DNA from: Sphingomonas sp.
GTDB taxonomy: Bacteria > Pseudomonadota > Alphaproteobacteria > Sphingomonadales > Sphingomonadaceae
Length of the DNA: 35,795 nt
Direction of reading: 5' to 3'
Assembly: GCF_019242355.1 (NCBI RefSeq)
Contig: NZ_JAFAVR010000271.1
Span: 1 to 35,795, forward strand
Part shown: one piece after another, positions 1 through 20,441 of the stretch
Position numbering within the stretch: the stretch's first letter is position 1
Layout: each line of letters begins with the position of its first letter
Program-made: the position numbers and the translations under genes
The notes under the pieces: generated by a model
Seen by the model: only the letters and a program-made list of their open reading frames with translations
The model's database searches: none
Told to the model about the DNA's origin: nothing

Positions 1-535
1 CGGCGCGGCCGAGCGGCGCGCTGACCTATGAGCCTGGCGACGGCAGCCCGCTGTCGCCTGAGCAATTCCGGCGATTGAAGGACGAGCTTGGCGAGCAGTT
101 TTCGGGCAGCGGCAATGCCGGGCGGCCAATGCTGCTCGACGGCGGGCTCAAGTGGCAGGCGATGAGCCTGACTCCGGCCGACATGGATTTCGTGTCGCTG
201 AAGGAAGGCGCGGCGCGGGACATTGCGCTGGCGTTCGGAGTGCCGCCCGTGCTGGTCGGCCTTCCGGGCGACGCGACTTACGCCAATGCGCGAGAGGCGG
301 GGCGGCGCTGTACCGACAGACGATCCTGCCGATGGCGACGCGGGTGCTGGGCACGCTGGAGGCGATGCTCGGCGACTGGATGGGGCCGCTCAGGCTGGCG
401 GTCGACACCGACCAGATCAGCGAGCTCGCCGACGACCGTGCGCTGTTGTGGCAGCAGGTCGGCGCGGCGACGTTCCTGAGCGACGCGGAGAAGCGGATCA
501 TGCTTGGCTTTCCCGTCGAGGAGCTGACGCAGTGA
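1..535 (+). CDS. HK97-family phage/GTA portal protein, 5'-truncated by window and frameshifted at ~299-302
   Basis: Frame 3 reads ...PSGALTYEPGDGSPLSPEQFRRLKDELGEQFSGSGNAGRPMLLDGGLKWQAMSLTPADMDFVSLKEGAARDIALAFGVPPVLVGLPGDATYANAREA, typical of HK97 portals. The portal C-terminus continues in another frame: ALYRQTILPMATRVLGTLEAMLGDWMGPLRLAVDTDQISELADDRALLWQQVGAATFLSDAEKRIMLGFPVEELTQ, stop at 533-535. Confidence 0.9.
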
Positions 536-852
536 GCGCGTCGATGGACTCCGGGGCGATGCTGGCCACCCTGATGGCGCAGGCGGAGGGGCGCGGCGTC
601 GACCTGATCACGCTGCGGGCGCTGGTCGAGGAGTCGAGCCAGGCAGGCGCGCGGCGGGCGCTGGCGTCGCTGGGGCTCGATGACGAGCGGGCGCGGCGGG
701 ACATGGATGAACTGCGCGAGCTGCTGAGCGCGTGGCGCGATGCGAAGCGGAGCGCGTGGCGGGCGGTGGTGACATGGGCGGTGCGGCTGGGGCTGGCGAT
801 GCTGCTGATCGGGATCGCGGTGAAGCTGCGGCTAACGGACCTGGTGCAATGA
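532..852 (+). CDS. small GTA gp3.5-like protein (possibly DUF6127 family) with C-terminal hydrophobic helix
   Basis: GTG start overlapping the portal stop; VSASMDSGAMLATLMAQAEGRGVDLITLRALVEESSQAGARRALASLGL...WAVRLGLAMLLIGIAVKLRLTDLVQ; sits between portal and protease as in RcGTA-like clusters. Confidence 0.7.
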   Translation: MSASMDSGAMLATLMAQAEGRGVDLITLRALVEESSQAGARRALASLGLDDERARRDMDELRELLSAWRDAKRSAWRAVVTWAVRLGLAMLLIGIAVKLRLTDLVQ

Positions 853-1286
853 GGTTGCAACAGGCCCACCCCCCGGCCCCCTCCCGCAAGCGGGAGGGGG
901 AGGTGCGGTTCGCGGGGTACGCGGCGGTGTTCGATCGGCCGGACAAGGCCGGGGATATTGTGCGGAAGGGCGCGTTCCAGCGGGCGCTGGAGCGGGCGGG
1001 CGAGGTGCCCCTGCTGTGGCAGCACAAGCCGGGCGCGGTGATCGGGCGGATCGAGCATTTGAGCGAGGACAAGCGCGGGTTGCGGGTGATTGCGGTGGTT
1101 GGGGACGCGCGGGCGGCGGGGCTGCTTGGGAGCGGGAAGGTTGATGGGTTGAGCTTCGGCTATCGAGTGCGGGACGCGACGAGCGTCGGCGGGCAGCGCG
1201 AGCTGACGGAGCTGGACCTCGTCGAGGTGAGCGTGGTGGCGAACCCGATGCACCCGAAGGCTCGGGTGCATGCGGTTGAGACCTGA
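849..1286 (+). CDS. HK97-family prohead protease (GTA gp4-like)
   Basis: RFAGYAAVFDRPDKAGDIVRKGAFQRALERAGEVPLLWQHKPGAVIGRIEHLSEDKRGLRVIAVV...GKVDGLSFGYRVRDATSVGGQRELTELDLVEVSVVANPMHPKARV. ATG overlaps the previous stop; an alternative GTG start at 903 is possible. Confidence 0.92.
   Translation: MRLQQAHPPAPSRKREGEVRFAGYAAVFDRPDKAGDIVRKGAFQRALERAGEVPLLWQHKPGAVIGRIEHLSEDKRGLRVIAVVGDARAAGLLGSGKVDGLSFGYRVRDATSVGGQRELTELDLVEVSVVANPMHPKARVHAVET
877..900. repeat. GC-rich palindrome inside the predicted N-terminus of the protease ORF
   Basis: CCCCCTCCCGC-AA-GCGGGAGGGGG (perfect palindromic arms). Confidence 0.8.
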
Positions 1287-1365
1287 GCGCCGCGCCGTCG
1301 CCGGAGGACGGACGTGGCGACGACAGGGGGCGGAACGGCTCCTCCGCCCGCGCGGCGATAACGGT

Positions 1366-1405
1366 ATGGAATGAAGCGGGTCCCGGCTCAAGGCCGGGAT
1401 GACGA
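1366..1405. repeat. intergenic palindromic repeat (TGGAATGAAGCGGGTCCCGGCTCAAGGCCGGGATGACGAA)
   Basis: TCCCGGC (1381-1387) / GCCGGGA (1393-1399) followed by TGACGA; resembles dispersed alphaproteobacterial palindromic elements. Confidence 0.6.
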
Positions 1406-1442
1406 ATTAGGAAAAATCGATGGGCTGGGTCGCGCTTGCGGT

Positions 1443-1465
1443 CCGCCAGTCCCCCGGACTGGCGG
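1443..1465. repeat. perfect 10-bp inverted repeat between protease and capsid genes
   Basis: CCGCCAGTCC-ccc-GGACTGGCGG. Confidence 0.75.
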
Positions 1466-1514
1466 CTGCGCTCGCGTCCGCGGCCCTTTTTGTTTGTGCA
1501 CGGGAGATGAGTGA

Positions 1515-2633
1515 ATGGTGGAAGTGAAGGCGGATGCGCTCGAGCAGTCGTTCGAGCAGTTCGAGAGCGACGGGGTGGCGGAGCTCAAGGCGGAGCTCGA
1601 GACGCTGAAGGCGAAGATTTCGAGCGGGGTGATCGCGGCGCAGCGGCCGGCGCTGGACGGGGTGAAGTCGGCGGAGGCCTCGGGCTTCGTCGACCAGTAT
1701 CTGCGGCGCGGGATCGAGAGCGGGCTGGAGACCAAGGCGGTCGGAAGCTCGAGCGATGCGATCGGCGGCTATGCGGTGCCGCGCGAGATCGACCAGGTGA
1801 TCGGCGATACGTTGAAAGCGGTGTCGCCCATCCGCGCGATCGCCAATGTCGTGCAGGTGGGAAGTGCGGGTTACCGCAAGCTGATTGCGGTCGGCGGAAC
1901 GCCGTCGGGCTGGGTCGGGTTTGAAGGCGCTCGGCCGGAGACGGGGACTCCGACCTTTACCGAGGTCGTGCCGCCGTCGGGCGATCTCTATGCCAATCCG
2001 GCGGCGTCGCAGCAGATGCTCGACGATGCGGCGTTCGATGTCGAAGCCTGGCTGGCGAACGAGATTGCGGCCGAGTTCGCTCGCGCCGAAGGTGCGGCTT
2101 ACGTCAACGGCACCGGTGTCGGGCAGCCGCTCGGTTTCCTTGCGTCGCCGGTTGCGACGACTGCGGACGGCGTGCGGCCGATGGGCACTTTGCAGACAAT
2201 CGGCACCGGCAATGCAGGCGCCTTCCCGGCGAGCAACCCGGCCGACAAGCTGATCGACCTGGTGCAGACGCTTCGCTCGCCATACCGGCAGGGCGCGGTG
2301 TTCGTGATGAACTCGGCGACGGCGGCCGCGGTCAGGAAGTTCAAGACCGCGGACGGAGCGTTCATGTTCCAGCCGAGCCTGGCGGCGGGCCAGCCGGCGA
2401 CCTTGCTCGGCTATCCGCTTATCGAGGCGGAGGACATGCCGGACATCAGCGCGAACAGCCTGTCGATCGCGTTCGGCAACTTCAAGGCCGGCTATGTGAT
2501 CGCAGAGCGCAATGCGACGACGATCCTGCGCGATCCGTACACGCACAAGCCGTACGTCCACTTCTACGCGACCAAGCGGGTTGGCGGTCAGGTGGTGAAT
2601 TCGGAAGCGATCAAGCTGCTGAAGTTCGCCTGA
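1515..2633 (+). CDS. HK97-fold major capsid protein (GTA gp5-like)
   Basis: 372 aa; N-terminal coiled-coil scaffold-like region, then SSDAIGGYAVPREIDQVIGDTLKAVSPIRAIANVVQVG...GWVGFEGARPETGTPTFTEVVPPSGDLYANPAASQQMLDDAAFDVEAWLANEIAAEFARAEGAAYVNGTGVGQPLGFL. Confidence 0.95.
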   Translation: MVEVKADALEQSFEQFESDGVAELKAELETLKAKISSGVIAAQRPALDGVKSAEASGFVDQYLRRGIESGLETKAVGSSSDAIGGYAVPREIDQVIGDTLKAVSPIRAIANVVQVGSAGYRKLIAVGGTPSGWVGFEGARPETGTPTFTEVVPPSGDLYANPAASQQMLDDAAFDVEAWLANEIAAEFARAEGAAYVNGTGVGQPLGFLASPVATTADGVRPMGTLQTIGTGNAGAFPASNPADKLIDLVQTLRSPYRQGAVFVMNSATAAAVRKFKTADGAFMFQPSLAAGQPATLLGYPLIEAEDMPDISANSLSIAFGNFKAGYVIAERNATTILRDPYTHKPYVHFYATKRVGGQVVNSEAIKLLKFA

Positions 2634-2642
2634 TTTGACTCG

Positions 2643-2674
2643 GGGGCTGAGCGTTCGTTCGCTCAGCCCCTTTT
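2643..2674 (+). terminator. intrinsic terminator immediately downstream of the major capsid gene
   Basis: GGGGCTGAGC (2643-2652) - gttcgttc - GCTCAGCCCC (2661-2670) - TTTT. Confidence 0.85.
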
Positions 2675-2723
2675 CCCGTGTCGCCAGTCGGCGCGGGCCC
2701 CCTCCACCGCCTCCGGCGGTCCC

Positions 2724-2752
2724 CCTCCCCGTTCCGGGGAGGATTTTCTTTT
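2724..2752 (+). terminator. second terminator-like hairpin directly upstream of the tailspike RBS (part of a repeat-like element at ~2696-2752)
   Basis: CCTCCCCG - ttc - CGGGGAGG - ATTTTCTTTT; preceded by ACCGCC-tcc-GGCGGT. Confidence 0.6.
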
Positions 2753-2766
2753 GGTGAGGAGCGCCG

Positions 2767-4593
2767 ATGTCGGACGCCTTTCAGCCGAGGTTTGTCGACC
2801 TCGTGCGCAACTACAGTATCTCGCAGGGCACGGGACCGTTCGTGCTCGGGCCGCCGGTGCAGGGGTTCTCGAGCTTTGCGAGCGCTCTCAAGACCGGCGA
2901 CCAATTCTATTATTCCGCAATCGGGATCGACAAGCCGAACGAACGCGAAGTCGGACGCGGGACGCTGCAGTCGGACGGAAGCATCGCGCGCGCCGCGATC
3001 GCCGGCGCGCCGACCAGCTTCACCGCCGGCAGCAAGTCGATTGCGCTGATCGCCGCGGCGGAATGGTTCAACAATGTCCAGGCTGGAGCGGGAACGGGCG
3101 CGGCAGCGCAGGCGGCGGCGACGCGGACGGCGCTTGCGGCGACGGCGGCCGGCGCTGTCCCGGTGCAGCTCACCGAGAAGGGTCGCGAGGGCACGTTCCT
3201 CTTCGACAGCTCGAACCTCAGCGCGAAGGTCAGCGCCGATTCGGCGCAGGGCATTTATGTCGCTCCGTCTTCGGATGCGTCGGGAGCGTCCGGCGCCTGG
3301 GTGCGCAAGTTCAGCGGCGCGGTCGACGTTCGCTGGTTCGGCGCGGTTGCCGACGACACGGGCACGGCGGGCACCGACAACGGGCCGGCGTTCGCGGCGG
3401 CTATCGCCTTCCTGAATGCGACGTCATCGACGCTGAACAGTACTTCGAAGGGGTCGCGCAGGCTGATCGCATCGGGCGCTTATTATCTTGGAACGACGAC
3501 CCTGGAGCTTACGCATACGTTGATGCTGTCGGGCGACGGGCCGCAAGCCGCGACCAAGCTGCGTTGGGCGGACAACACGACCGGCATCCGGATCGAGCGC
3601 TACAACACGCAAGGGGCGACCGCGGTGTCGTCGCCGACTCATTATGGCGGCGACAACAGCGTCATCGAGAACATGACGCTCTATGGCGGATTCACCGACG
3701 CCGAGAGCGAGAGCCATGCGATCCACATGCGGGCCGCGGCGATCGTCCGGAACGTCCAAATCTACAATTTCGGCGGGGATGGCATCCATATCGAGGCGAC
3801 GTCGGGCGGCGGCGTTCCCCAGGAAGGCAATGCCAACGTCTGGCGCGTCGAATATTGCAATATCAGCCTGTGCCGGATTGGCCTGTTCATCGACGGCGCC
3901 GATACCAATGCGGGCGTCAGCATTTCCGTCAATGCCTTCACCAACCGGCAGGCGCATACCTGGGACAGCTCGTTCCTCAACAACACGCACATCGCCGCGC
4001 AATCGTCAGGCAATGGCGTCGTCGCGTGGTGCACCGGCGCTGCCGGGCATCCGGCGACAGCCTGCAGCTACAACGGCAATCGCTACTATGTGAAGCTGGG
4101 GCAGTCCGCCGGAGCGTCGACCAACGCGCCAACGGGAACAACCGCGGACAACGCCTATTGGGGCTATCTGACGCCGGGCGCGGTCCGGGCGGGCTATCCG
4201 GCGTGGGTCAGCGGAATGACGTGCCGCGAGGGGTCGGCGTTCCTGACCGATAACGCCAATGCGCGTATCATCTTCGACGGCTGCTACAGCGAGCAGGACC
4301 ATGGGCCGTCGCAGCTTGGCCCGCTGACGCTGGTCCGGGGCGGCTTCCATGGTGCCGGAATCGTCGGCACCGGCACCGTGACCGAAGTCGGCTCGACCGG
4401 CTGCTTCACGGCGCGCGGCGCGATCGGGAAGAATGATCCGTTCGTCGGCAATCTCTACACGATCGGCGAATATAATGTGGAGGCGACGCTGCTTCGCGCC
4501 GTTCATCCCACCTACGCTCCCAACTCGTGGCGGATGGCGTTCGGCGTGAATGGCGGGGCGAAAATACGCCGAAGACCTGTGGACCCACTATAA
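2767..4593 (+). CDS. tailspike/tail fiber protein with right-handed beta-helix (pectate-lyase-like) domain; N-terminal part, frameshifted near its 3' end
   Basis: N-terminal anchor-like region (DAFQPRFVDLVRNYSISQGTGPFVLGPPVQGFSSF...), then WFGAVADDTGTAGTDNGPAFAAAIAFL and repeated helix-like strands (NSVIENMTLYGGFTDAESESHAIHMRAAAIVRNVQIYNFGGDGIHIEATSGGGV). Confidence 0.85.
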   Translation: MSDAFQPRFVDLVRNYSISQGTGPFVLGPPVQGFSSFASALKTGDQFYYSAIGIDKPNEREVGRGTLQSDGSIARAAIAGAPTSFTAGSKSIALIAAAEWFNNVQAGAGTGAAAQAAATRTALAATAAGAVPVQLTEKGREGTFLFDSSNLSAKVSADSAQGIYVAPSSDASGASGAWVRKFSGAVDVRWFGAVADDTGTAGTDNGPAFAAAIAFLNATSSTLNSTSKGSRRLIASGAYYLGTTTLELTHTLMLSGDGPQAATKLRWADNTTGIRIERYNTQGATAVSSPTHYGGDNSVIENMTLYGGFTDAESESHAIHMRAAAIVRNVQIYNFGGDGIHIEATSGGGVPQEGNANVWRVEYCNISLCRIGLFIDGADTNAGVSISVNAFTNRQAHTWDSSFLNNTHIAAQSSGNGVVAWCTGAAGHPATACSYNGNRYYVKLGQSAGASTNAPTGTTADNAYWGYLTPGAVRAGYPAWVSGMTCREGSAFLTDNANARIIFDGCYSEQDHGPSQLGPLTLVRGGFHGAGIVGTGTVTEVGSTGCFTARGAIGKNDPFVGNLYTIGEYNVEATLLRAVHPTYAPNSWRMAFGVNGGAKIRRRPVDPL

Positions 4594-5221
4594 CAACAAT
4601 CCGGTCGAGAAACTGAGCGGGCCGAGCACGGGCGAGCAATATGGGCGTGGGGCTGCGCAGCCTTACTATCGCCACGTCGTCAACTTCGCGCTTGGGCCCT
4701 ACAACAACGCCGGAGCGCGAGTACTGACCTATGGCGCGGCTGCGCCGACGACCGGGGCGCACGCGGCCGGCGAGATCGTGTTCAACAATGGCGCGACGAG
4801 CACAACGGCGGTTGCCTGGCAGTGCGTCGCGACCGGGACGCCGGGAACCTGGCGGGCGATCTTCAGCGGCTTCGGAATTGCGCCGGTCGGTTATTCGACC
4901 GGGGCGGGCGGCGCAGTCACGCAGGCGACCGCCAAGTCGACCGGAGTCACCCTGAACAAGCTGTCGGGGCAGGTCACCATGAACGCGGGCTCGCTTGCGG
5001 CCGGGGCCGCCGCTGGGTTCACGCTCACGAACTCGCAGATCGCGGCGAGCGACATCGTCAAGGTGAACATTGCGTCCGGTGCGAGCGCGGACAGCTACGT
5101 CGTCGGGGTGGATGCGGTCGCGGCCGGATCGTGCCGGATCTCGCTGCGCAACCTGTCGGCCGGCGCGCTCGCGGAGGCGGTCGTGCTCAACTTCGCAGTG
5201 ATCAAGGCGGTGGCGGCGTGA
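4550..5221 (+). CDS. C-terminal part of the tailspike in another frame (continuation of 2767..4593)
   Basis: KYAEDLWTHYNNNPVEKLSGPSTGEQYGRGAAQPYYRHVVNFALGPYNNAGARVLTYGAAAPTTG...GSLAAGAAAGFTLTNSQIAASDIVKVNIASGASADSYVVGVDAVAAGSCRISLRNLSAGALAEAVVLNFAVIKAVAA; phage spike C-terminal-domain-like sequence with no independent N-terminal domain. Confidence 0.8.
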   Translation: MAGRKYAEDLWTHYNNNPVEKLSGPSTGEQYGRGAAQPYYRHVVNFALGPYNNAGARVLTYGAAAPTTGAHAAGEIVFNNGATSTTAVAWQCVATGTPGTWRAIFSGFGIAPVGYSTGAGGAVTQATAKSTGVTLNKLSGQVTMNAGSLAAGAAAGFTLTNSQIAASDIVKVNIASGASADSYVVGVDAVAAGSCRISLRNLSAGALAEAVVLNFAVIKAVAA

Positions 5222-5355
5222 GCATCGGCGCATCCGGCATCGCCGAGGCGGCGCTTGCCCAGCAGGTGGCGATCGCGCGCGGCGGCAAGGCGCCGCGATC
5301 CCGGCAGACGGTCGCCAAGCCCGACTCCGCGACCCTGGTGCCCGAAGCGCGCTGA
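5218..5355 (+). CDS. small hypothetical protein (45 aa)
   Basis: GTG start overlapping the tailspike stop; VSIGASGIAEAALAQQVAIARGGKAPRSRQTVAKPDSATLVPEAR. Confidence 0.5.
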   Translation: MSIGASGIAEAALAQQVAIARGGKAPRSRQTVAKPDSATLVPEAR

Positions 5356-5391
5356 GCCGCGCCTACGCAACTGAGATTCAAGAGGACAAAG

Positions 5392-5673
5392 ATGAACTAT
5401 CTCCTCAAGGACCCCGACGCGGTCCTCGATTATTCCGTGGATTGGGGCGCCGAATATCTAGGCGGCGACCTGCTTGCGGAAAGCACATGGTCGGTGGTTC
5501 CCGACGAGGCCGGCGGGGTTTCGGTCCAGGCTTCGGATTTCGATGCAACCACAACCAGCGTCACCGCCGCCGGCGGGATCGCCGGACGCGTGTATCGGCT
5601 GGTCAACGCCGTCGTCCTGATGTCGGGCCGGGCCGACAGCCGCTCGATCGTGCTGCGCGTGGAGGGGCGGTGA
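5392..5673 (+). CDS. phage fiber-tail adaptor-like protein
   Basis: MNYLLKDPDAVLDYSVDWGAEYLGGDLLAESTWSVVPDEAGGVSVQASDFDATTTSVTAAGGIAGRVYRLVNAVVLMSGRADSRSIVLRVEGR; matches the pattern of small gp77-type fiber-tail adaptor proteins. Confidence 0.7.
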   Translation: MNYLLKDPDAVLDYSVDWGAEYLGGDLLAESTWSVVPDEAGGVSVQASDFDATTTSVTAAGGIAGRVYRLVNAVVLMSGRADSRSIVLRVEGR

Positions 5674-6206
5674 TGGGCGGCGTCGGGATGGCTCCGGCCG
5701 CGGTCACCGTCACCGAGGCGCAGGCCTATGTGCGGATCGACACGGGCGAGGAGGAGGCGATCGTCGCCGGCCTGATCCGCACCGCCACGGCATTATGCGA
5801 AAGCTTCATCGGCCAGGCGTTGATCGCCCGGCCATTCAACGAGGATGTTCCGGCGAGCGGCTGCTGGCAGCGGCTGACGGCAGCGCCGGTACAGTCGATC
5901 TCGGCGGCGCAGGGGATCGCCAGTGACGGGAGCGCGGCGGACCTCGCGAGCAGCGACTATGGCGTGGATGTGGATTCCGGCGGGTCGGGCTGGGTGCGCC
6001 TGGCACGAGATACTGGCGTGACCCGCCTGAGGGTGAGCGGAACGGTCGGCATGGCCGAGAGCCAGAGCGACGTCCCCGAGCCGATCCGGCAAGGCGTGTT
6101 GCGGCTGGTCGCGCATCTGTTCGCGACGCGCGACGGATCGGGTGGTGAACCGCCGGCAGCGGTGACGGCGCTGTGGCGGCCCTACCGCAGGCTGGGTTTG
6201 CGATGA
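5673..6206 (+). CDS. head-tail connector protein (GTA gp6-like; phiE125 gp8 family)
   Basis: MGGVGMAPAAVTVTEAQAYVRIDTGEEEAIVAGLIRTATALCESFIGQALIARPF...VPEPIRQGVLRLVAHLFATRDG. Confidence 0.85.
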   Translation: MGGVGMAPAAVTVTEAQAYVRIDTGEEEAIVAGLIRTATALCESFIGQALIARPFNEDVPASGCWQRLTAAPVQSISAAQGIASDGSAADLASSDYGVDVDSGGSGWVRLARDTGVTRLRVSGTVGMAESQSDVPEPIRQGVLRLVAHLFATRDGSGGEPPAAVTALWRPYRRLGLR

Positions 6207-6535
6207 GAAGCGGCGAATTCGCGGGGACGCTCTGCGAGCGGATCCTCATCGAGCAGCCATCGATGCAGCGGGACCCGAGCGGGCTTCCGCTCGTGGGCTG
6301 GGTGAGCGTTTGCACCTGCAGTGCGAGCATCGTGCCGGACGGTGTCGGGCCGCAGAGCCAGGGCGAGGCGCCGAGCGCGATGCAGCGATTCCGGGTCACG
6401 ATCCGGCGGCGCGACGGCATCGCCATCGACCAGCGCATCAGCTGGGGAGCGAGGCGGCTGATGGTGCGGCAGCTGCTCGACGACCGCGTAGCGAAGGATC
6501 GGATCAGCATGCGATGCGACGAGGTGCGAGGATGA
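6203..6535 (+). CDS. head closure / head-tail adaptor protein (GTA gp7-like)
   Basis: MRSGEFAGTLCERILIEQPSMQRDPSGLPLVGWVSVCTCSASIVPDG...AMQRFRVTIRRRDGIAIDQRISWGARRLMVRQLLDDRVAKDRISMRCDEVRG. Confidence 0.8.
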   Translation: MRSGEFAGTLCERILIEQPSMQRDPSGLPLVGWVSVCTCSASIVPDGVGPQSQGEAPSAMQRFRVTIRRRDGIAIDQRISWGARRLMVRQLLDDRVAKDRISMRCDEVRG

Positions 6536-6741
6536 TGGAGAAAGCAGTCGAGCGCGCCCGCCAACTCGGCGAGGCGCGGGCGCAAAGCGTCGCGGAAGAG
6601 GTCAGGGACACGGTGCGGGCGGAACTTCCTGGACAAACCGTTGAGGTGGACGGAAGCGATCTCGTCGTCACCGGACACGGCCTGCTGAGGCAGTGGCTGC
6701 AGTCCGCGGACCTCCGATTTCTGGCGAGCAGGCGGCGATGA
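6532..6741 (+). CDS. small hypothetical protein in head-tail module
   Basis: MMEKAVERARQLGEARAQSVAEEVRDTVRAELPGQTVEVDGSDLVVTGHGLLRQWLQSADLRFLASRRR; overlapping start/stop with both neighbours. Confidence 0.65.
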   Translation: MMEKAVERARQLGEARAQSVAEEVRDTVRAELPGQTVEVDGSDLVVTGHGLLRQWLQSADLRFLASRRR

Positions 6742-7109
6742 GCGCGGGCGCGATGGTGGCGACGGCGGTGGTCGCGAGCCTGGCCGACGTGGGACTTGCG
6801 GGCGTTTATGACGGGCCGCCGGCGCGGGCCGCTTACCCTTACGCGACGATCGATGCCGCGAGCGAGGCCGACTGGAGCCACAAGACGGGGACCGGGCGCG
6901 AGGTGGCGCTGGCAGTGACGGTCTGGGACGACCAGCCGATGCGGCTGCGCGACCTTGCCGATGCGGCCGAGCAGCGAATCGCGGCGATCGAGCTTTCCGG
7001 CGACTGGCAGCTGGTCAGCCTGCGCTTCGTGCGCCGGCGTGTCATCCGCGATGTCAGCGGGCCCTGGGCGGCGGCAATCGATTTCCGGGCGCGGCTGCTG
7101 GCGAACTGA
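6738..7109 (+). CDS. tail terminator, DUF3168 (GTA gp8-like)
   Basis: ADVGLAGVYDGPPARAAYPYATIDAASEADWSHKTGTGREVALAVTVWDDQPMRLRDLADAAEQRIAAIELSGDWQLVSLRFVRRRVIRDVSGPWAAAIDFRARLLAN. Confidence 0.88.
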   Translation: MSAGAMVATAVVASLADVGLAGVYDGPPARAAYPYATIDAASEADWSHKTGTGREVALAVTVWDDQPMRLRDLADAAEQRIAAIELSGDWQLVSLRFVRRRVIRDVSGPWAAAIDFRARLLAN

Positions 7110-7154
7110 TTTTCGGCGGTCCGAGCGCGGGATTCATTCAACGAGGAGAAGATT

Positions 7155-7562
7155 ATGGCGGCGGAACGCGGAAGCGCATTCCTGCTCAAGATCGGCGACG
7201 GTTCGGCGACCCCGACCTATGCGACCGTGGCGGGGCTGAAGACGACGCAATTGTCGATCAACGGCAATGCGGTCGAGATCACCAACAAGGGCAGCGGCGG
7301 CTGGCGCGAGTTGCTGTCCGGCGCGGGCGTGAGGTCGGTGTCGGTCGCGGCGAGCGGCATCTTCACGGGCAGCAGCGCGGAAACGCAGGTGCGCGGCCTG
7401 GCGCTGACGGGGACGTTGCAGAGCTGCCAGCTGAGCTTCGAGAGCGGCGAGCGGATGCAGGGGCAGTTCCTGGTTACGCGGCTGGAATATGCCGGCGATT
7501 TCAACGGCGAGCGCAACTACACGCTAGCCCTCGAAAGCTCGGGCGAAGTGGTGGCGCTATGA
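7155..7562 (+). CDS. major tail protein, TP901-1-like (GTA gp9-like)
   Basis: MAAERGSAFLLKIGDGSATPTYATVAGLKTTQLSINGNAVEITNKGSGGWRELLSGAGVRSVSVAASGIFTGSSAETQVRGLALTGTLQSCQLSFESGERMQGQFLVTRLEYAGDFNGERNYTLALESSGEVVAL. Confidence 0.92.
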   Translation: MAAERGSAFLLKIGDGSATPTYATVAGLKTTQLSINGNAVEITNKGSGGWRELLSGAGVRSVSVAASGIFTGSSAETQVRGLALTGTLQSCQLSFESGERMQGQFLVTRLEYAGDFNGERNYTLALESSGEVVAL

Positions 7563-7870
7563 GCGGGGCCAACGCGTATCGTGGCGAGTGTAGCCTGGAG
7601 GTCGGCGGCGAAACGCTGGTGCTTCGGCCGAGCTTTGCAGCGCTGGTCGCGGCGGAGGAGGAGCTCGGCTCGCTTTTCGAGCTGGTCGAGCAGGCTGCAG
7701 CCGGGCAGCTTGGGCTGCAGCAGATCGTTGCCTTGTTCGACCATCTTTCGAAAAGCCGCGTCGGCGCGATTACGCGTGAGCGGATCGGCGAGGCTGTGGT
7801 CGAGCTGGGGCTGGCGAAGATCACGCCAGTCCTGCGCGCTGTCCTGAGTCAGGTCCTGCAGGGGCGATGA
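7559..7870 (+). CDS. gene transfer agent family protein (GTA gp10-like)
   Basis: MSGANAYRGECSLEVGGETLVLRPSFAALVAAEEELGSLFELVEQAAAGQLGLQQIVALFDHLSKS...; overlaps both neighbouring genes by 4 nt. Confidence 0.85.
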   Translation: MSGANAYRGECSLEVGGETLVLRPSFAALVAAEEELGSLFELVEQAAAGQLGLQQIVALFDHLSKSRVGAITRERIGEAVVELGLAKITPVLRAVLSQVLQGR

Positions 7871-8061
7871 CCGCAAAGTTCGGCAATGCGGCCTCGCGAT
7901 TGTGCGGGGCCGCGTCGACGCTTCTTGGGTGGCGGCCGGACGAGTTCTGGAACGCGACGCCTGCGGAGCTGGCAACGGCCCTGGCGCCGCCGGAGCATAG
8001 TGCCGAGCCCATGCTGCCGGACGTCTTCGCCGATCTTCGGCAACGCTTCCCTGACGATTGA
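7867..8061 (+). CDS. phage tail assembly chaperone (small GTA-type protein)
   Basis: MTAKFGNAASRLCGAASTLLGWRPDEFWNATPAELATALAPPEHSAEPMLPDVFADLRQRFPDD; GWRPDEFWNATPAEL is characteristic. Confidence 0.8.
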   Translation: MTAKFGNAASRLCGAASTLLGWRPDEFWNATPAELATALAPPEHSAEPMLPDVFADLRQRFPDD

Positions 8062-8073
8062 AAGCAGTAAGAG

Positions 8074-8649
8074 ATGGATGAGGAAATCGATCGGCTGGTC
8101 GTCAGCGTGCGCGCGGACACGGCTGGCTTTGCACGTGACGTGGCATCGATGCGCGGCGAGCTCGAGGGGCCGCTTGCGAGCGGCGTCAGCCGGGCCGGGC
8201 GACTGATCGACAATGCGCTCGCAAGTGCGCTCAAGACCGGCAAGCTAGGCTTCGACGACCTGAAGAAGACGGCACTGTCGGCGATGTCGGACATCGAGCA
8301 GTCGTCGTTGCGTGCCCTCTTCGGTACGTCGGGTGGAACGGGCGGAAGTATCGGCAAGGGATTGCTGAGCGGGATCGGAAGCGTCGTCTCAGGGCTGATG
8401 GGGTCTCCGGGCCGGGCGACCGGCGGACCGGTTTCGCAAGGTCGCGCCTATGTCGTGGGCGAGAACGGGCCCGAGCTGTTCGTGCCGGGCAGCGCGGGGC
8501 GGATCGAGACCGGCGGGGGATCGGGCGCGCGGGACGTGCGCGTTGCGATTTCGGTGCAGACGCCGACGCCTTCGGACCCGCAGGTGCTGCGACAATCGAG
8601 CAGGCAGTTGGCGCGCGCGGTTCGGGCTGCGTTGGCGAGCGGGCGATGA
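8074..8649 (+). CDS. short tail tape measure protein (GTA gp11-like)
   Basis: MDEEIDRLVVSVRADTAGFARDVASMRGELEGPLASGVSRAGRLIDNALASALKTGKLGFDDLKKTALSAMSDIEQSSLRALFG...GGPVSQGRAYVVGENGPELFVPGSAGRIE; 191 aa. Confidence 0.85.
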   Translation: MDEEIDRLVVSVRADTAGFARDVASMRGELEGPLASGVSRAGRLIDNALASALKTGKLGFDDLKKTALSAMSDIEQSSLRALFGTSGGTGGSIGKGLLSGIGSVVSGLMGSPGRATGGPVSQGRAYVVGENGPELFVPGSAGRIETGGGSGARDVRVAISVQTPTPSDPQVLRQSSRQLARAVRAALASGR

Positions 8650-10946
8650 GATACTGGTTCACTCGGCCGGACGCGCCGATTGCCGGCACGTGGGTCAAGC
8701 GGTTCGATCCCCGCTACTGGACCGTCGATTTTCCCCGCGGAACCGTCGCAAGCGTCGTCACTGGCGACGATCCGCATAGCATGACGGTCACGGCGGAGAT
8801 GGCGCGCAAGGGCGACCTGGTCGGACTCATTTACGAGAGCGCCGACCGGCTGTCGCATCCGGCGCATGCGTACCGGACGGGTGTCGATTATTCCGGATGT
8901 ACGTTGAGCTTTCGCTGGCAGTCGAGCGGCGTGATGCCGCTGGACGCGGCGAACGGTCCGACGCTGACGATCGAAGGCAAGGACGCCGCGGGCAATCCGC
9001 GGTCCTGGTACGTGCGGCTCTGGAATTATGCGCAGGGCTCTTCGACCGATGCCGTGATTACGCTCGACTTCGACGCGATGGATGGCGGCTTCGGGCTGCC
9101 AGCGGACGCGGACGGGGTGAATCCGAGCGCGATCGACCGATTGTTCATCAGCATCGTCGCGCCCGATTACGCGGAGGGATCGGCAGAGCTGCGCGCCGCG
9201 CCGGCGAAGGCGACGGTGACGATCAGCGGACTTGCCTGCGACGGCCATGCCAGCGTCCTTCGCATCAACGATGCGATGGTGCCTGAGCATGACCTGCGCA
9301 TCGCGACGGCCTATGACGACATGTACAATTTGACGCCCGAACGGATTGTCGAGGCAGTGGAGCGGCTCGGCTACCGCGGGGTCATCAATCACTATATCGG
9401 AATGAGCCACTATTTCGCGCTGGACGGCGCGGGGCTGGTGGATGCGTCGCGACCGATGAACGATGCTGCGCTGGCGTGGCATCGCGCGTTCGCCGAGGCG
9501 GCCAAAGTGCGCGGCTATGACGTGATCTGGTCGCTGTCGTACGAAATCCTGGACCAGTTCTGCCCGGACGCGTGGAAGCAACGCGACTATCACGGCGCGT
9601 CGGCGGCGACCGGATATGATCCGCCCTCGACGCTCGTGTCGCCGGCGAACGAGGACGCGATCGCCTTCCTGCGTTCGGTCGGGGAGCAATTCGTAGATAT
9701 CGCTGTCGAGGCTGGCCTGCAGCCGCAGGTCCAGGTTGGCGAGCCGTGGTGGTGGGTGACGGCGAGCGGCGGGCTCAGCCTTTACGACGATGCGGCGAAA
9801 GCAGCGCTGGGCGGCGCGCCTGTCGAGATCGCGGACGTGCGTGCGGCGATGACGACGGCGCAGACGGAGTTGCTCGATGCCGCCGGGGCCTTGCTCGCGG
9901 CATCGACGGCGGAGATCGCGAATGCGGCGAAGGCAAAGGCGGCGGACACTCGGACGCTGTTGCTCGCTTACCTGCCGGTCGTGCTCGATCCTGCGGCGCC
10001 GGAGCTGGCGCGGGCCAACCTGCCGGTCGGCTGGGCGAAGCCTGCGTTCGATGTCCTTCAGCTGGAAGATTACGACTGGGTGACGAGCGGGCGAAGCAAC
10101 CTGCGGGCGTTTGCCTATTCCGAGGTGCAGGCGCGGCTCGGCTATTCGGCCGGCGAGCAGCATTATCTGTCCGGCTTCGTCGCGAACGCCGCCGAGCGCG
10201 GCCAATGGCGCGAGGTGATCGACGCAGCCCTGGAGGCGCGGCGGCGCGGTTGCGCGGAGGTCTTCATCTGGGCCCTCCCGCAGGTGCTTCGCGACGGACT
10301 GACAATCTTTGGAACGGAGGCGGCGGTGGCGCCCTTTGACGATCTATCCTTCCCGATCGAGATCGGCGCGCAGGCGAGCGTTGCGCCAAGCTATTCGACC
10401 AGTATCGTGACGACGGCGAGCGGATATGAGAGCCGCAACGCCAACTGGCAGCAGGCGCGGCTGAAGTTCGATGCTGGGCCGGGCGTTCGCGGCGATTCGG
10501 AACTTGAGACCCTGATCGCGTTCTTCCGAGCCCGCCGCGGGCCCGCCGTGGGGTTCCGCTTCCGCGATCCCTATGATTTCAGCTCGAACGGGATGACGGC
10601 GACACCGAGCGCGAGCGACCAGGCGATCGGATTCGGGGACGGCGCGACGGCTCGGTTCGAATTGGTGAAGGCTTACGGCGGCGGCGAGACGCGACGAATC
10701 ACTCGGCCCGTTGCCGGGACGGTTCGGGTGGCGATCGACGGGACCGAGCTCGCGAGCGGATGGACGCTGGCGCCGCTCGGCGTGATCGAGCTGTCGGAGG
10801 CGCCCGCAGTTGGGGCGACCGTAACGGCCGGGTTTCTGTTCGACGTGCCGGTGCGGTTCGCCGAAGATCAGATCGAGGTGAATCGGGCGACGTTCCTGGC
10901 CGGCGAGGCGCCGAGCGTGCCGCTGGTCGAAGTCCGCGAGGGCTGA
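8646..10946 (+). CDS. 766-aa fusion: N-terminal TIM-barrel/glycoside-hydrolase-like region plus C-terminal DUF2460 (TIGR02217; GTA gp12-like distal tail protein)
   Basis: C-terminus: FPIEIGAQASVAPSYSTSIVTTASGYESRNANWQQARLKFDAGPGVRGDSELETLIAFFRARRGPAVGFRFRDPYDFSS...EDQIEVNRATFLAGEAPSVPLVEVREG (DUF2460). N-terminal ~560 aa: beta-rich segment, then TIM-like pattern GYRGVINHYIG...GYDVIWSLSYEIL...QPQVQVGEPWWWV...FDVLQLEDYDWV...CAEVFIWALPQVL. Confidence 0.88.
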   Translation: MRYWFTRPDAPIAGTWVKRFDPRYWTVDFPRGTVASVVTGDDPHSMTVTAEMARKGDLVGLIYESADRLSHPAHAYRTGVDYSGCTLSFRWQSSGVMPLDAANGPTLTIEGKDAAGNPRSWYVRLWNYAQGSSTDAVITLDFDAMDGGFGLPADADGVNPSAIDRLFISIVAPDYAEGSAELRAAPAKATVTISGLACDGHASVLRINDAMVPEHDLRIATAYDDMYNLTPERIVEAVERLGYRGVINHYIGMSHYFALDGAGLVDASRPMNDAALAWHRAFAEAAKVRGYDVIWSLSYEILDQFCPDAWKQRDYHGASAATGYDPPSTLVSPANEDAIAFLRSVGEQFVDIAVEAGLQPQVQVGEPWWWVTASGGLSLYDDAAKAALGGAPVEIADVRAAMTTAQTELLDAAGALLAASTAEIANAAKAKAADTRTLLLAYLPVVLDPAAPELARANLPVGWAKPAFDVLQLEDYDWVTSGRSNLRAFAYSEVQARLGYSAGEQHYLSGFVANAAERGQWREVIDAALEARRRGCAEVFIWALPQVLRDGLTIFGTEAAVAPFDDLSFPIEIGAQASVAPSYSTSIVTTASGYESRNANWQQARLKFDAGPGVRGDSELETLIAFFRARRGPAVGFRFRDPYDFSSNGMTATPSASDQAIGFGDGATARFELVKAYGGGETRRITRPVAGTVRVAIDGTELASGWTLAPLGVIELSEAPAVGATVTAGFLFDVPVRFAEDQIEVNRATFLAGEAPSVPLVEVREG

Positions 10947-10949
10947 GCG

Positions 10950-11759
10950 GTGGCGACAATGATCGATGGGGAGGCCACGAGCCTCGCCCTGTGCTGGCGG
11001 CTCGAGCGGGCCGACGGCGCCGGAATCGCGCTTACCAGTCACGACGAGGCTGTGCTGATCGGCAACGACCGCTACGAGCCTGAGCCGGGCATCGTGCCCG
11101 CGTCGGTGAGCCGCAGGCTCGGGCTCGATGCCCAGACGTCGGAGATTTCAGGCGGTCTCAGTTCGGACGCGCTGGATGAGACGGAGCTCACGCTCGGCCG
11201 GTGGGACGGTGCGCGGGCGGTGCTCGTCGCAGTGGACTGGAGCAGCCCCGACCGCGGGGAGACCAGCTTGCTCACGGGTGAGATCGGGCAAGTGCAGACC
11301 CAGGACGGAGGCTTCTCCGCCGACCTGAACGGCGCCGCCGCTGCGCTGGACCGGCCGATCTGTCCGTCGACCTCGCCGCAATGCCGGGCCGAGCTTGGCG
11401 ACGCGGCGTGCCGGATCGATCTTCGCGGGCGGAGCGCGCGGGCGATCGTGGCGGGCAGTAGCGGCGGCGAGCTGACGTTGGAAGACGCCGTCGACAGCAG
11501 GTTCCTCCTCGGCCGGCTGCGCTACCTGAGCGGATCCAATTGCGGGCTCTCGACCGTGATCATTGGGGTTGCCGGTGACCAGATTCGGGTTCGCGACCTG
11601 CCGCGAGCGGCGATCGAGGAAGGTTGCCGGGTCGAGCTTCGCGAAGGGTGCGACAAGACATTCGCGACCTGCCGAACGCGCTTCGCCAATGCCGCGAATT
11701 TTCGGGGCGAGCCGTACCTGCCCGGCAATGACCTTCTCACCCGATACCCGGGGGCCTGA
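10950..11759 (+). CDS. DUF2163 baseplate hub protein (GTA gp13-like)
   Basis: LALCWRLERADGAGIALTSHDEAVLIGNDRYEPEPGIVPASVSRRLGLDAQTSEISGGLSSDALDETELTLGRWDGARAVLVAVDW...CPSTSPQCRAELGDAACRIDL...GCDKTFATCRTRFANAANFRGEPYLPGND; GTG start. Confidence 0.92.
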   Translation: MATMIDGEATSLALCWRLERADGAGIALTSHDEAVLIGNDRYEPEPGIVPASVSRRLGLDAQTSEISGGLSSDALDETELTLGRWDGARAVLVAVDWSSPDRGETSLLTGEIGQVQTQDGGFSADLNGAAAALDRPICPSTSPQCRAELGDAACRIDLRGRSARAIVAGSSGGELTLEDAVDSRFLLGRLRYLSGSNCGLSTVIIGVAGDQIRVRDLPRAAIEEGCRVELREGCDKTFATCRTRFANAANFRGEPYLPGNDLLTRYPGA

Positions 11760-11760
11760 C

Positions 11761-12162
11761 ATGACCAATCCATTCGTCGACCGGGCGCGCGCTCTGGTCG
11801 GCACGCGGTTTCGCCCGCAGGGACGGAGCCCGGAGACAGGGCTCGACTGCGTCGGTCTTGCACTGGCGGTGTTCGGCATTCGCGCGAACGCCGTGCGGCG
11901 GGACTACCGATTGCGCGGCGCTCACGGCCAGGAGCTGAGTCGCGAGGTGCTGCGGTTCTTCCGGCGCGTCGGCAAGGTGGCCGCGGCGCCCGGCGACCTG
12001 GTGATATCCAGTGTCGCCCTCGACCAGCTGCATCTCTCGATCATCAGCGACGGCGCCTTCGTCCACGCGGACGGGAGGATCGGCCGCGTCGTCGAGACGC
12101 CGGGAACGCCTTCGTGGCCATGCGAGGGCGTTTATCGGCGCCGGGTACGTGGGGAGAGCTAG
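11761..12162 (+). CDS. NlpC/P60 family peptidase (GTA gp14-like)
   Basis: MTNPFVDRARALVGTRFRPQGRSPETGLDCVGLALAVFG...GDLVISSVALDQLHLSIISDGAFVHADGRIGRVVETPG; DCVGL catalytic Cys and LHLSI His positions. Confidence 0.9.
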   Translation: MTNPFVDRARALVGTRFRPQGRSPETGLDCVGLALAVFGIRANAVRRDYRLRGAHGQELSREVLRFFRRVGKVAAAPGDLVISSVALDQLHLSIISDGAFVHADGRIGRVVETPGTPSWPCEGVYRRRVRGES

Positions 12163-12165
12163 GCG

Positions 12166-14316
12166 ATGGCGACTCTTGTTCTCAGCACGGTCGGCACATC
12201 GCTTGGCGGTCCCGTCGGCGGCGCGATCGGCAGTCTGATTGGCCAGTCGATCGATCAGCAGATGCTGGCTCCGCCGGCGCGAGGGCCCCGGCTCGGCGAC
12301 CTGTCGGTCCAGACGTCGGCGTACGGGACGCAAATCCCGCGAGTCTATGGGACGATGCGCGTGGCAGGCAGCGTGGTCTGGTCAACCGACCTGATCGAAA
12401 GCAGCGCCATCGCGGGCGCCAAGGGCGAGCCTGACGTCACCTACAGTTATTCGGTGTCGATGGCGGTCGCGCTGTCATCACGGCCCTTGCGCGAGATCCG
12501 CCGCATCTGGGCCGACGGCAATCTGCTGCGGGGCGAGGCCGGCGATTTCAAGACGAGCACGGATTTCCGCTTCTACGACGGCGGCGAGGATCAGGCGGTC
12601 GATCCGCTGATCGGCTCCATCGAAGGAGCCGACGGGACGCCAGCCTATCGCGGACTGGCAATGGCGATGTTCGAGAATCTCGAGCTTGCCGATTTCGGCA
12701 ACCGCATTCCGTTCCTGACCTTCGAAGTCGTCGCGGACGACGGCGACCCGACGCTTGCAGACATTCTCGGCGACGCGAGCGATGGGTGCATCAGGATCGC
12801 GGATGGGCGGACGTTGGTGGGCTATTCCGCAATCGGCAAGTCGATGAGCGCGGCGATTCGGCCGCTAGTCGACACGTTCGATGTGGAGCTGGTCGATGCG
12901 TGCGGATTGATAGGGCCTGCCGACGGCGAGACGCTCCAGATTGGCGAGGATGAGCTCGGGACGTCGGCAAACAGCTCGACCGCCACGCGGATGCAGCGCG
13001 ATCAAGACCCGGCCCGGTCCCTGCCGGCATCGGTTCTGGTGACCTATTACGATCCGGAACGCGATTATCAGTCCGGGCTGGCGCGAGCGGATGGCGGCGC
13101 GCGCGAAGGCGAGGAGACCCGGATCGAGTTGCCGGCCGTCCTTTCCGCTGCCTCTGCTCGCTCGCTAGCCGAGGAAGCGATTGCGCGAGCATGGGCTCGG
13201 CGCGACCGGTTGAAGCTGAGTCTGCCCGGCAGCCGGATCGGGCTCCTTCCGGGTGCTCGCGTCAAGGTCCCGGCGATGCCGGGAATTTGGCGGGTCGAGC
13301 AGAGCACGATCGACGCGATGGCGGTTGCGCTCGAGCTGCGGCCGGAATGGCGGCCTTTGCCTGACATCGCCGCGGACAGCGGACGGTCGAACGCCGCTGC
13401 CGACCGCGTCGACGGGCCAGCCAGCTTTGCCTTGGCCGAGCTTCCGAGCATCGACGGAACGCCGTCGTCAGTCCCGAATGTTTACCTTGCCGCGGCCAGT
13501 GCAACGCAGGGTTGGAAGCCGCTCGCGGTCGAGGTCACGGGACCGGGATGGTTGGCGAGCAGCACGACTTCGGCAGTTAAATCGGTTCTGGGTGCTGCGA
13601 TCAGCATTCTGCCGGACGGGAGCACCGACCTCGTCGACGCGGTCGGGTTCGTGGATGTCCGGCTCGTCGATGCGGAACAGTGGCTCTTAAGCTGCGACGA
13701 CGAGGCCTTGATGGCGGGCGCAAACCTTGCCCTTCTCGGCGGCGAGATCCTGCAGTTCGGTGTGGCGAAGCCGCTTGGCGCGGGCGCTTTTCGGCTGTCT
13801 CGATTGCTGCGCGGCAGGGGCGGAACGGAATGGGCGACGGCCGGGCACCAGGCCGGCGAGGCATTCGTGCTGCTTGAGGCGGCGTCACTTCGGCAGGTTC
13901 CGCTGCCGGATTGGGCTAGCGGAAGCGAGTTCGAGGTGCTGCAACCCGCGCGGCAGGGGAGCGCGAGCGCGGCGCTCAAGGTCAGTGGGGACAGTCTTCG
14001 GCCCTGGTCGCCGGTTGGACTTCGGGCCGCGCTCACCGATGGTGGCGATCTTGCGATCGGCTGGATCCGCCGAAGCCGAGTGCGCTGCGGTTGGCTCGAC
14101 GACATCGACATGCCGCTTGGCGAGCGGCTCGAGCAATATGACGTCACGATCACGGCCGGGGAGCAGTCGCTGGACTATTCCTGCGGAATGCCAGCGATCA
14201 CGATTTCCGCTGTGCAGCTGGGACGACTCGGCACAGGAACGGCGACGATCTCGGTCAGGCAGGTCGGCGACTGGGGCGCGTCGCGTCCGGCCACCGTACA
14301 CATTACGCTAAGCTAG
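12166..14316 (+). CDS. tail tip/host-specificity protein (GTA gp15-like, Phage-tail_3 domain), without the TIM-barrel domain of RcGTA gp15
   Basis: Gly/Ala-rich N-terminus; GTQIPRVYGTMRVAGSVVWSTDLIESS...VTYSYSVSMAVALSSRPLREIRRIWADGNLL...DFRFYDGGEDQAVDPLIGSIEGADGTPAYRGLAMAMFENLELADFGNRIPFLTFEV. Confidence 0.9.
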   Translation: MATLVLSTVGTSLGGPVGGAIGSLIGQSIDQQMLAPPARGPRLGDLSVQTSAYGTQIPRVYGTMRVAGSVVWSTDLIESSAIAGAKGEPDVTYSYSVSMAVALSSRPLREIRRIWADGNLLRGEAGDFKTSTDFRFYDGGEDQAVDPLIGSIEGADGTPAYRGLAMAMFENLELADFGNRIPFLTFEVVADDGDPTLADILGDASDGCIRIADGRTLVGYSAIGKSMSAAIRPLVDTFDVELVDACGLIGPADGETLQIGEDELGTSANSSTATRMQRDQDPARSLPASVLVTYYDPERDYQSGLARADGGAREGEETRIELPAVLSAASARSLAEEAIARAWARRDRLKLSLPGSRIGLLPGARVKVPAMPGIWRVEQSTIDAMAVALELRPEWRPLPDIAADSGRSNAAADRVDGPASFALAELPSIDGTPSSVPNVYLAAASATQGWKPLAVEVTGPGWLASSTTSAVKSVLGAAISILPDGSTDLVDAVGFVDVRLVDAEQWLLSCDDEALMAGANLALLGGEILQFGVAKPLGAGAFRLSRLLRGRGGTEWATAGHQAGEAFVLLEAASLRQVPLPDWASGSEFEVLQPARQGSASAALKVSGDSLRPWSPVGLRAALTDGGDLAIGWIRRSRVRCGWLDDIDMPLGERLEQYDVTITAGEQSLDYSCGMPAITISAVQLGRLGTGTATISVRQVGDWGASRPATVHITLS

Positions 14317-14326
14317 GAGAACGAAA

Positions 14327-14824
14327 GTGGGCGCAAGCGCGCGATTCTCGCTGCCCCTTCTCGCCGCCGGACAGGCGCAGAAGGAAGCGGTGCACAATGA
14401 AGCGGTCCAGCTGCTCGATTTTCTGGCCGCGGCGGCGGTCGAGGATGTGCCGGGAGCAACTCCTCCGGGCGCTCCGCAAGTGGGCGCGACCTATATCGTC
14501 GGGGAGGGTGCGACAGAAGGGTGGGCCGGGCAAGACAATAGCCTGGCGGGCTATAGCGCCGCCGGGTGGCGATTCATTTCGCCGCGGGACGGGATGCTGG
14601 CCTATGTCGTGAGCCAGTCGACCTGGGCACTCTATCGCGGAGGCGCGTGGGAGATCGGCGCCGTTCGCGGCGACAAGCTCGTGATCGCCGGCCAGCAGGT
14701 CGTCGGACCGCGTGCCGCGATGATCGCTGCCCCGACCGGAGGCGCCACCGTGGACGCTCAATCACGGACGGCGATCGCGCAGATCCTGTCCGCGCTGCAA
14801 ACCCACGGACTGATTGGAAGCTAG
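14327..14824 (+). CDS. DUF2793 domain-containing protein (phage/GTA tail-associated)
   Basis: GTG start; FSLPLLAAGQAQKEAVHNEAVQLLDFLAAAAVEDVPGATPPGAPQVGATYIVGEGATEGWAGQDNSLAGYSAAGWRFISPRDGMLAYVVSQSTWALYRGGAWEIG. Confidence 0.88.
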   Translation: MGASARFSLPLLAAGQAQKEAVHNEAVQLLDFLAAAAVEDVPGATPPGAPQVGATYIVGEGATEGWAGQDNSLAGYSAAGWRFISPRDGMLAYVVSQSTWALYRGGAWEIGAVRGDKLVIAGQQVVGPRAAMIAAPTGGATVDAQSRTAIAQILSALQTHGLIGS

Positions 14825-19789: not shown

Positions 19790-20356
19790 TCAGAGCCCGC
19801 GAACTAGCGTTGAGGCGACCGCGATCCAGGGTGGGTTGGTCACGATTTGCTGGCGCCCACCGGCCTCGAGCGGCAGAATCTGAAGCTTGTCGGCGTCGCG
19901 GTTGATCAACCGTCCGAACAGGAAGCGTCCGGCGGCGCGCGGAACCAGCACGTCGCGGTTCATCGCTCGGCCGAAATCCTCGGTCCCCAGCATCTCGCAC
20001 CAGATCTCGTCGCCGGCGCGGTAATTGCCGATGCTCGAGGAGACCGTGACCGCCACCTCGCCGTTCTTGACTCGCGGCGGAATGACGATGGTGGCCTTGC
20101 GCGGAGCCGCCGCCCCCGATGCCCCAACCACCGCCGCGACCTTGAGCTCGGCCGGCGCCTCACCACCGCCGACGAGATCCTGCGCATCGACGCCGAGCGC
20201 GCCTGCGATGCGGTTGAGCCAGCCCACCGACACGGTGCGCGTGCCCGTTTCGAGCCTGCCAATCGTCTGCGGCGTCGTCGGCGGGTCGCAGCGCCGCGCG
20301 ACATCGTCCAGGGTCAGCCCGCGGGCCTTCCGAACATCCCGAATTCGCGTAATCAT
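19790..20356 (-). CDS. XRE-family HTH regulator, possibly with C-terminal S24-like domain
   Basis: MITRIRDVRKARGLTLDDVARRCDPPTTPQTIGRLETGTRTVSVGWLNRIAGALGVDAQDLV (HTH_3), then a beta-rich C-terminus ...VKNGEVAVTVSSSIGNYRAGDEIWCEMLGTEDFGRAMNRDVLVPRAAGRFLFGRLINRDADKLQILPLEAGGRQQIV. Confidence 0.85.
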   Translation of the reverse strand: MITRIRDVRKARGLTLDDVARRCDPPTTPQTIGRLETGTRTVSVGWLNRIAGALGVDAQDLVGGGEAPAELKVAAVVGASGAAAPRKATIVIPPRVKNGEVAVTVSSSIGNYRAGDEIWCEMLGTEDFGRAMNRDVLVPRAAGRFLFGRLINRDADKLQILPLEAGGRQQIVTNPPWIAVASTLVRGL

Positions 20357-20368
20357 GTTGTGCCACCT

Positions 20369-20397: not shown

Positions 20398-20441
20398 TTT
20401 CGCCGCTGTGGCAAGCCACCCGCGACTCGAAAGGAGAAGGC

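Follow-up and report, generated by a model that had tools for sequence, protein, structure and literature searches.

An RcGTA-type head-tail gene cluster in a sphingomonad, with a variable slot for putative receptor appendages between the capsid gene and g6

We have found, in a 35,795-base stretch of sphingomonad DNA (the window, which is the entire contig C269 of a 287-contig, 2.62-Mb assembly), a head-tail gene cluster of the kind that encodes RcGTA of Rhodobacter capsulatus. A gene transfer agent (GTA) is a bacterium's own virus-like DNA-delivery particle. The cluster spans positions 1-14824 and is the RcGTA-type head-tail cluster in its sphingomonad form. We hold it highly probable that the region is an RcGTA-type GTA cluster, inherited mostly vertically in the Sphingomonadaceae, with a slot for receptor appendages between the capsid gene and g6. 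This kind of GTA is known; the slot is apparently undescribed, and no priority is claimed. The full-text GTA literature that we searched (on distribution, codon bias, replacement of the head completion gene, RcGTA head spikes and TspA, with Viswanathan et al. 2017 outside its scope) holds no description of it. Which recipients receive GTA DNA is a central question, set between sharing among kin only and broader transfer. A slot with species-specific receptor modules beside a near-invariant particle would make recipient range directly testable.

Gene content and flanks of the cluster

All genes of the cluster lie on the forward strand. The window opens within the portal gene, g3 (1-535; PF04860, E 3.7e-30 over 3-479), whose 5' part lies beyond the contig; its second half reads in frame over 152-535 and is homologous to the portals of relatives at a fixed in-frame offset. 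Next come a g3.5-like gene encoding a DUF6127 protein (544-852; PF19622, E 6.7e-27), which has the same place in most clusters, the prohead protease g4 (849-1286; PF04586, E 4.4e-28; phrog_80) and the HK97-type major capsid protein g5 (1515-2633; PF05065, E 1.6e-86). Beyond the interval treated below, which holds a tailspike gene and a gp77 gene, lie the head-tail connector g6 (5673-6206; TIGR02215, E 2.3e-25; phrog_442) and the head completion protein g7 (6203-6535; PF05521, E 4.4e-12); the head completion gene has been reported as replaced in Sphingomonadales (PMC9765227). A small ORF between g7 and g8 (6535-6741) has homologues in 30 loci by an iterated profile and no match among the PHROGs. 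It is followed by the tail completion protein g8 (6738-7109; PF11367, the DUF3168 of the earlier note, E 3.9e-13), the tail tube protein g9 (7155-7562; PF06199, E 1.1e-37), g10 (7559-7870; PF11836, GTA-gp10, E 6.7e-15), a tail assembly chaperone (7867-8061; PF09550, E 8.3e-15) and a short tape measure of 191 aa, g11 (8074-8649), which matches tape-measure PHROGs (phrog_30701, E 1e-58) and, below the cut-off, the RcGTA_tape model NF058675 (E 4e-4). A 766-aa fusion joins a non-contractile-tail-sheath-type N-terminal/TIM-barrel region to the distal tail protein g12 (8646-10946; PF23844, PF23845, PF09343; PDB 6tba distal tail protein, E 1.4e-44). The cluster closes with the baseplate hub g13 (10950-11759; PF09931, PF09356), a cell-wall peptidase-like g14 (11761-12162) called from phrog_329, its position and an NlpC/P60 match of only E 0.0065, a short form of the g15 'megatron' (12166-14316; PF23666, PF13550 and Rcc01698_C, with the megatron model NF048004 below its cut-off) and a DUF2793 protein that is a probable tail-fibre base (14327-14824; PF10983, E 7e-26; PDB 8gtc chain S, E 7e-8). 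The number of genes backed by profiles, and their collinearity, exclude chance. A GC-rich palindrome (CCCCCTCCCGC/GCGGGAGGGGG) at 876-903 falls among the opening codons of the protease gene and is read through in frame.

Contig C269 begins within the portal gene, so that the GTA cluster is cut mid-portal. On another contig of the assembly, C60, an inorganic pyrophosphatase gene is followed by a small-terminase-like gp1 and then by terL, within which that contig ends. The only portal recovered in a search of the source genome is the window's own. Because of this gene order, and because gp1, terL and portal are adjacent in relatives, C60 and C269 probably join. Downstream of the cluster lie an L,D-transpeptidase gene, an SDR gene, an inositol-phosphatase-family (IMP) gene and other ordinary chromosomal genes; both flanks are thus chromosomal, given the pyrophosphatase gene upstream on C60. 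Profile searches found no integrase among the window ORFs scanned or on contig C60, the gap between C60 and C269 lying outside view, and no replication or lysis genes among the window ORFs scanned. An earlier note, made from the sequence alone, had described an RcGTA-like order from portal to DUF2793, free of integrase, replication and lysis genes and ending next to ordinary chromosomal genes. Profile searches bear out the order, from which its list left out the spike and gp77 genes, and the other two points held as well; the upstream terminases that it proposed to look for are the gp1 and terL of C60, beside the pyrophosphatase gene, and the integrase that would have spoken otherwise is absent from that contig. 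Further along the window, on the reverse strand at 33377-34234, a 285-aa protein with PAS_2 and GAF domains only resembles a shortened bacteriophytochrome.

The cluster resembles RcGTA in the order g1-g15, the short tape measure, the homologues of distal tail protein, hub and megatron, and a GafA-family activator. It differs in its tail: here the TIM-barrel region is fused to g12, and the megatron is without its central ~645 residues. The window's g15 has 716 aa versus 1304 in RcGTA and aligns only to residues 25-215 and 861-1290 of the RcGTA megatron; the central megatron region is therefore absent, while g12 carries the TIM barrel. Every one of 49 relatives has the fusion as a single ORF, and their g15 is likewise short throughout (median ORF about 740 aa). 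Judged by these genomes, the TIM-barrel-g12 fusion, the short megatron and the DUF2793 gene are normal for the lineage and no peculiarity of the strain. The cluster is thus a variant and not a copy of RcGTA, as the earlier note had it, but most of the differences belong to the normal sphingomonad form, and the variable part is the capsid-g6 interval. One genome (G045, locus L054) is missing the region from tail sheath to g12 between the tape measure and g13.

Descent of the cluster and its putative regulators

A capsid match is present in 106 of 151 genomes of the family, and the gene order is identical in all 39 family clusters that were fetched. A GTA tree built from five proteins in 27 species was compared with an RpoB tree of the same species, the window's genome being excluded from this comparison, its own RpoB being cut by a contig end. 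Quartet agreement was 0.715 (shuffled mean 0.334, maximum 0.481), and the correlation of GTA and RpoB distances was 0.694 (null maximum 0.339). In a capsid tree that included five phage and six prophage capsids, the GTA capsids form a set without any phage or prophage inside it, with low support (0.28) at the exact base of the clade. The best phage capsids are about 45%, and at most 46%, identical. The bias towards carbon-poor amino acids that sets GTAs apart from phages was gauged here against neighbouring proteins and shows only weakly: pooled side-chain carbons per residue are 2.62 in the GTA proteins and 2.74 in their neighbours.

That the region is an ordinary temperate prophage, or a recent remnant of one, with RcGTA-like structural genes is a reading to which we give very little credence. 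Homologues of all components occur in phages, gp77 and tailspikes among them. We reject it on account of the flanks, the gene order and the tree congruence: chromosomal genes lie on both sides without an integrase, the signal of descent is vertical with an order fixed over dozens of genera, and phage capsids reach at most the identity given above. The conserved order, the congruence with RpoB, the position of the capsid outside phages, an activator gene 5.6 kb away and terminases beside a housekeeping gene without an integrase together identify a GTA and not an ordinary prophage remnant. Where the earlier note left the choice at a domesticated GTA or a prophage remnant rather than an intact prophage, the first half stands and the ordinary remnant falls, on the shared order, the trees and the flanks; the synteny across sphingomonads and the capsid phylogeny that it proposed as checks came out on the side of the GTA, the latter with the low basal support stated above. 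A 'conserved prophage' of Sphingomonadales (Viswanathan et al. 2017) has been predicted to be RcGTA-like by GTA-Hunter, as cited in PMC6821227, and it and the window's cluster are almost certainly the same class of element.

Gene content, order, distribution, the anchor-gene rule described below, congruence and linkage to gafZ were read directly from the genomes, and the GTA is known here from its genes alone; we infer from them that particles are produced. Terminase and portal would load small heads with host DNA, and a short tail, built with the 191-aa tape measure, would deliver this DNA after lysis of the producing cell.

The activator gene encodes a 164-aa gafZ-type protein with DUF6456 (20442-20936, forward strand; PF20057, E 8.9e-39), 5.6 kb downstream of the cluster. 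DUF6456 is the gafA family (PMC9638019, PMC9765227). Beside it and divergent from it lies an HTH repressor-like gene (19790-20356, reverse strand; HTH_31/HTH_3, E 1e-10). Across the genus the HTH gene is 59-83% identical and divergent from gafZ, and the pair lies near the GTA cluster in several species, sometimes on its other side. Genomes that lack a capsid match can carry DUF6456 genes too, and the linkage to gafZ would for that reason be supporting, not decisive, for a GTA. The region between the two genes (20357-20441), predicted to be a shared promoter/operator, was aligned from nine genomes of the genus, which have in common an invariant 10-base CTGTCCTACA, AACC-N-GGT and TGGCA. An operator of the RogA type, GGAA-N4-TTCC, was not seen in the gafZ promoter, which carries this different conserved element instead.

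The closest parallel to this arrangement is CcGTA of Caulobacter crescentus with GafY, GafZ and RogA (PMC9632790, PMC11150451), which likewise has a separate GafZ-like activator. There the LexA-like repressor RogA blocks gafYZ (PMC9632790); here the repressor-like gene is of the HTH kind, adjacent and divergent, and no GafY gene was seen beside the window's gafZ. The HTH gene is a candidate counterpart of RogA. A GafZ-type activator, restrained by such a divergent LexA/RogA-like repressor, may activate the operon in a subset of cells. A Gln/Gly/Ser-rich low-complexity protein is predicted at 21004-21620 on the reverse strand, in the stretch from gafZ to the rpsF region.

The interval between the capsid gene and g6

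The window's interval holds a modular tailspike gene (2767-4593) and a gp77 gene (5392-5673). The spike has a conserved anchor domain at about residues 9-110, found at the same place in relatives and also kept in other genera, and a variable, probably beta-helical body; its C-terminal part follows in another frame (4550-5221; phrog_18251, E 1.1e-35), and its end matches the ends of the unbroken spikes of L162, L165 and L176. The gp77-like fibre adaptor belongs to PF23148 (E 9.5e-25; 87.4 bits against a curated cut-off of 27) and matches PDB 8jou chain D (E 1.5e-5). Both anchor domain and gp77 are present in 16 of 16 classifiable clusters of the genus, and we reject the idea of an insertion unique to the window's strain.

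Across 125 non-redundant clusters, the interval is empty in 74, holds gp77 and little else in five, and is merely short, with a head-spike base, in two. It exceeds 1 kb in 44, with gp77 in 36 of these, an RcGTA-type head-spike base in six and both in two; a large insert thus comes with an anchor gene (gp77 or spike base) in 44 of 44 cases. The set was partly picked for the presence of gp77, so the proportions are not frequencies, and the association of insert and anchor is the point. Head-spike bases were called by the NCBIfam equivalog model for Rcc01079 (NF048002; 98 bits, cut-off 28) and PDB 6tb9. The base occupies the same capsid-g6 slot in other sphingomonad clusters, is encoded at another chromosomal site in further genomes of the family and, by NF048002, has no match in the window's genome. 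Spike base and gp77 are not strict alternatives, an idea that we rejected since L052 and L053 carry both. Going by the clusters compared, the slot is polymorphic, and the window's spike cassette represents one of its states.

The insert might instead be a passenger (moron) that forms no part of the particle, and the empty interval in 74 of the clusters and the poor conservation of spike bodies would agree with that. We think it improbable: the insert always travels with a particle anchor gene, on the same strand and at the same place, its anchor domain is conserved throughout the classifiable clusters of the genus, gp77 is fused to a connector in L116, and the known head-spike base of RcGTA uses the same slot. 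We thus treat the capsid-g6 interval as a putative slot for receptor appendages, which in other lineages would hold the RcGTA head-spike base and fibre or stand empty.

In RcGTA itself, the head-spike base and fibre (rcc01079-01080) and the tail fibre rcc00171 have locus numbers away from the rcc016xx cluster. Here the receptor genes are inside the cluster, between g5 and g6, and the spike and gp77 replace the spike base and fibre.

The body of the spike has no detectable similarity in some close relatives whose capsids are 79-84% identical, and 33-48% in more distant ones, a pattern that fits exchange of the receptor part. Spikes of other clusters carry GDSL and SASA esterase domains and a lectin-like domain, which therefore point to surface sugars. 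The sequence of the window's spike gave no significant match in PDB or Pfam. A full-length model of it (mean pLDDT 44.8) found tailspikes as its best fold matches, non-significantly (none reached E 0.001), and was set aside as too weak to serve as evidence by itself. The anchor domain by itself gave a model of fair confidence (mean pLDDT 79), and its second-best PDB match was a chain of the GP4 portal-tail complex, at a non-significant E of 0.02. We infer both the attachment point and the sugar specificity: the N-terminal domain would anchor the spike to the particle, and the exchangeable body would bind or trim surface polysaccharide.

The likeness to GP4, a Ralstonia podophage, lies in the gp77 homologue (PF23148; PDB 8jou chain D) and, weakly, in this anchor model; the difference is that GP4 is a short-tailed phage whose overall gene set is unrelated. 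In L116, gp77 forms one fusion protein with a head-tail connector like Mu gp36, and gp77 is common in ordinary phages too. Because gp77 matches the fibre-tail adaptor family of GP4 and because of the fusion in L116, gp77 would most likely serve as the adaptor that holds the spike to the neck. A spike at the capsid vertices or the tail tip, with gp77 acting elsewhere, is the less likely arrangement but keeps some weight: RcGTA head spikes sit on capsid pentamers (PMC7296036), and L052 and L053 have spike base and gp77 together. Against it, gp77 takes its name from a podophage fibre-tail adaptor (PF23148), adjoins g6 and is joined to a connector in L116. Attachment at the neck is most likely.

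RcGTA also uses a polysaccharide-active spike, TspA (PMC13420450), and is in this respect alike, the sugar activity proposed here being deduced. The spikes described here differ in their anchor, and their genes are part of the cluster. In GTA-bearing Alphaproteobacteria outside Rhodobacterales, TspA is reported to have no homologue (PMC13420450). Sphingomonad GTAs would gain a concrete attachment apparatus, as deduced from the genes, in place of TspA. What the slot contains may decide the cells to which a particle sticks. It is tempting, and somewhat short of an even chance, that sphingomonad GTAs have a dedicated capsid/neck cassette site at which whole receptor systems are swapped, their recipient range evolving by cassette exchange in the manner of phage host range.

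The spikes of L157, L168 and L174 end in an ILSALRxHGLI-like motif, as does the window's DUF2793 protein (14327-14824), which suggests that GTA appendage proteins share an element at their C-terminus.

Frame breaks and loss within the genus

Two genes of the cluster are broken in the window. The absence of one G near 298-303, where relatives read GCGGGGCGGGCGCTG, throws the portal out of frame, and a second break near 4562 leaves the C-terminus of the spike in a different frame from the rest. In each of the 50 relatives examined the portal is an intact ORF of 364 aa or longer, and nearly all relatives have the spike as a single ORF of about 650-990 aa. All other genes of the cluster are open. 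The genus has a capsid match in only 29 of 71 genomes (none in 42); capsids are broken in G159, G163 and G164, stops occur in G167 and G200, and internal deletions in G158, G167, G168, G196 and G207.

The window's cluster could accordingly be a decaying, non-functional GTA in which portal and spike are pseudogenes. This would be the same kind of element as in our preferred reading and would differ from it on function, and we rate it a serious contender, although not the favoured one. The single-base breaks in two genes that relatives keep whole, the broken or deleted clusters of the genus and the many genomes without a capsid match all speak for decay. Against this, all other genes are open, and the two breaks in the GTA part, with none noticed elsewhere on the contig, accord with chance (about 0.17, going by length only). 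Because each of them alters a single base within a short G or A run, in the manner typical of sequencing or assembly error, such error may well account for them; they were rejected as proof of decay, for which the reads would be needed. The favoured reading remains the RcGTA-type cluster described above, and within the genus the clusters range from complete through broken to lost, a gradation suited to the study of GTA extinction.

Several further arrangements were seen in the genus. Some clusters appear to have no terminase beside the portal (L163, L165, L166, L168, L169 and L174), and several of these have the ribosomal S6 region as their immediate upstream neighbour. Their genomes carry a GTA-like terL at another chromosomal site (L284, L290, L293-L296); the GTA genome is therefore split there, and the lack of a terminase in those clusters is only apparent. 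Capsid, spike, gp77 and baseplate genes are kept in L168, L169 and L174, with g10, chaperone and tape measure not recognisable and a very divergent g9. Several species have lost everything between the capsid (or the spike) and g15 or the DUF2793 gene (L177 and L178, also L167, L172, L159, L170, L179 and L180). In G168 and G158 the capsid, up to about residue 354, runs into the DUF2793 protein in a single open frame (529 and 503 aa, respectively).
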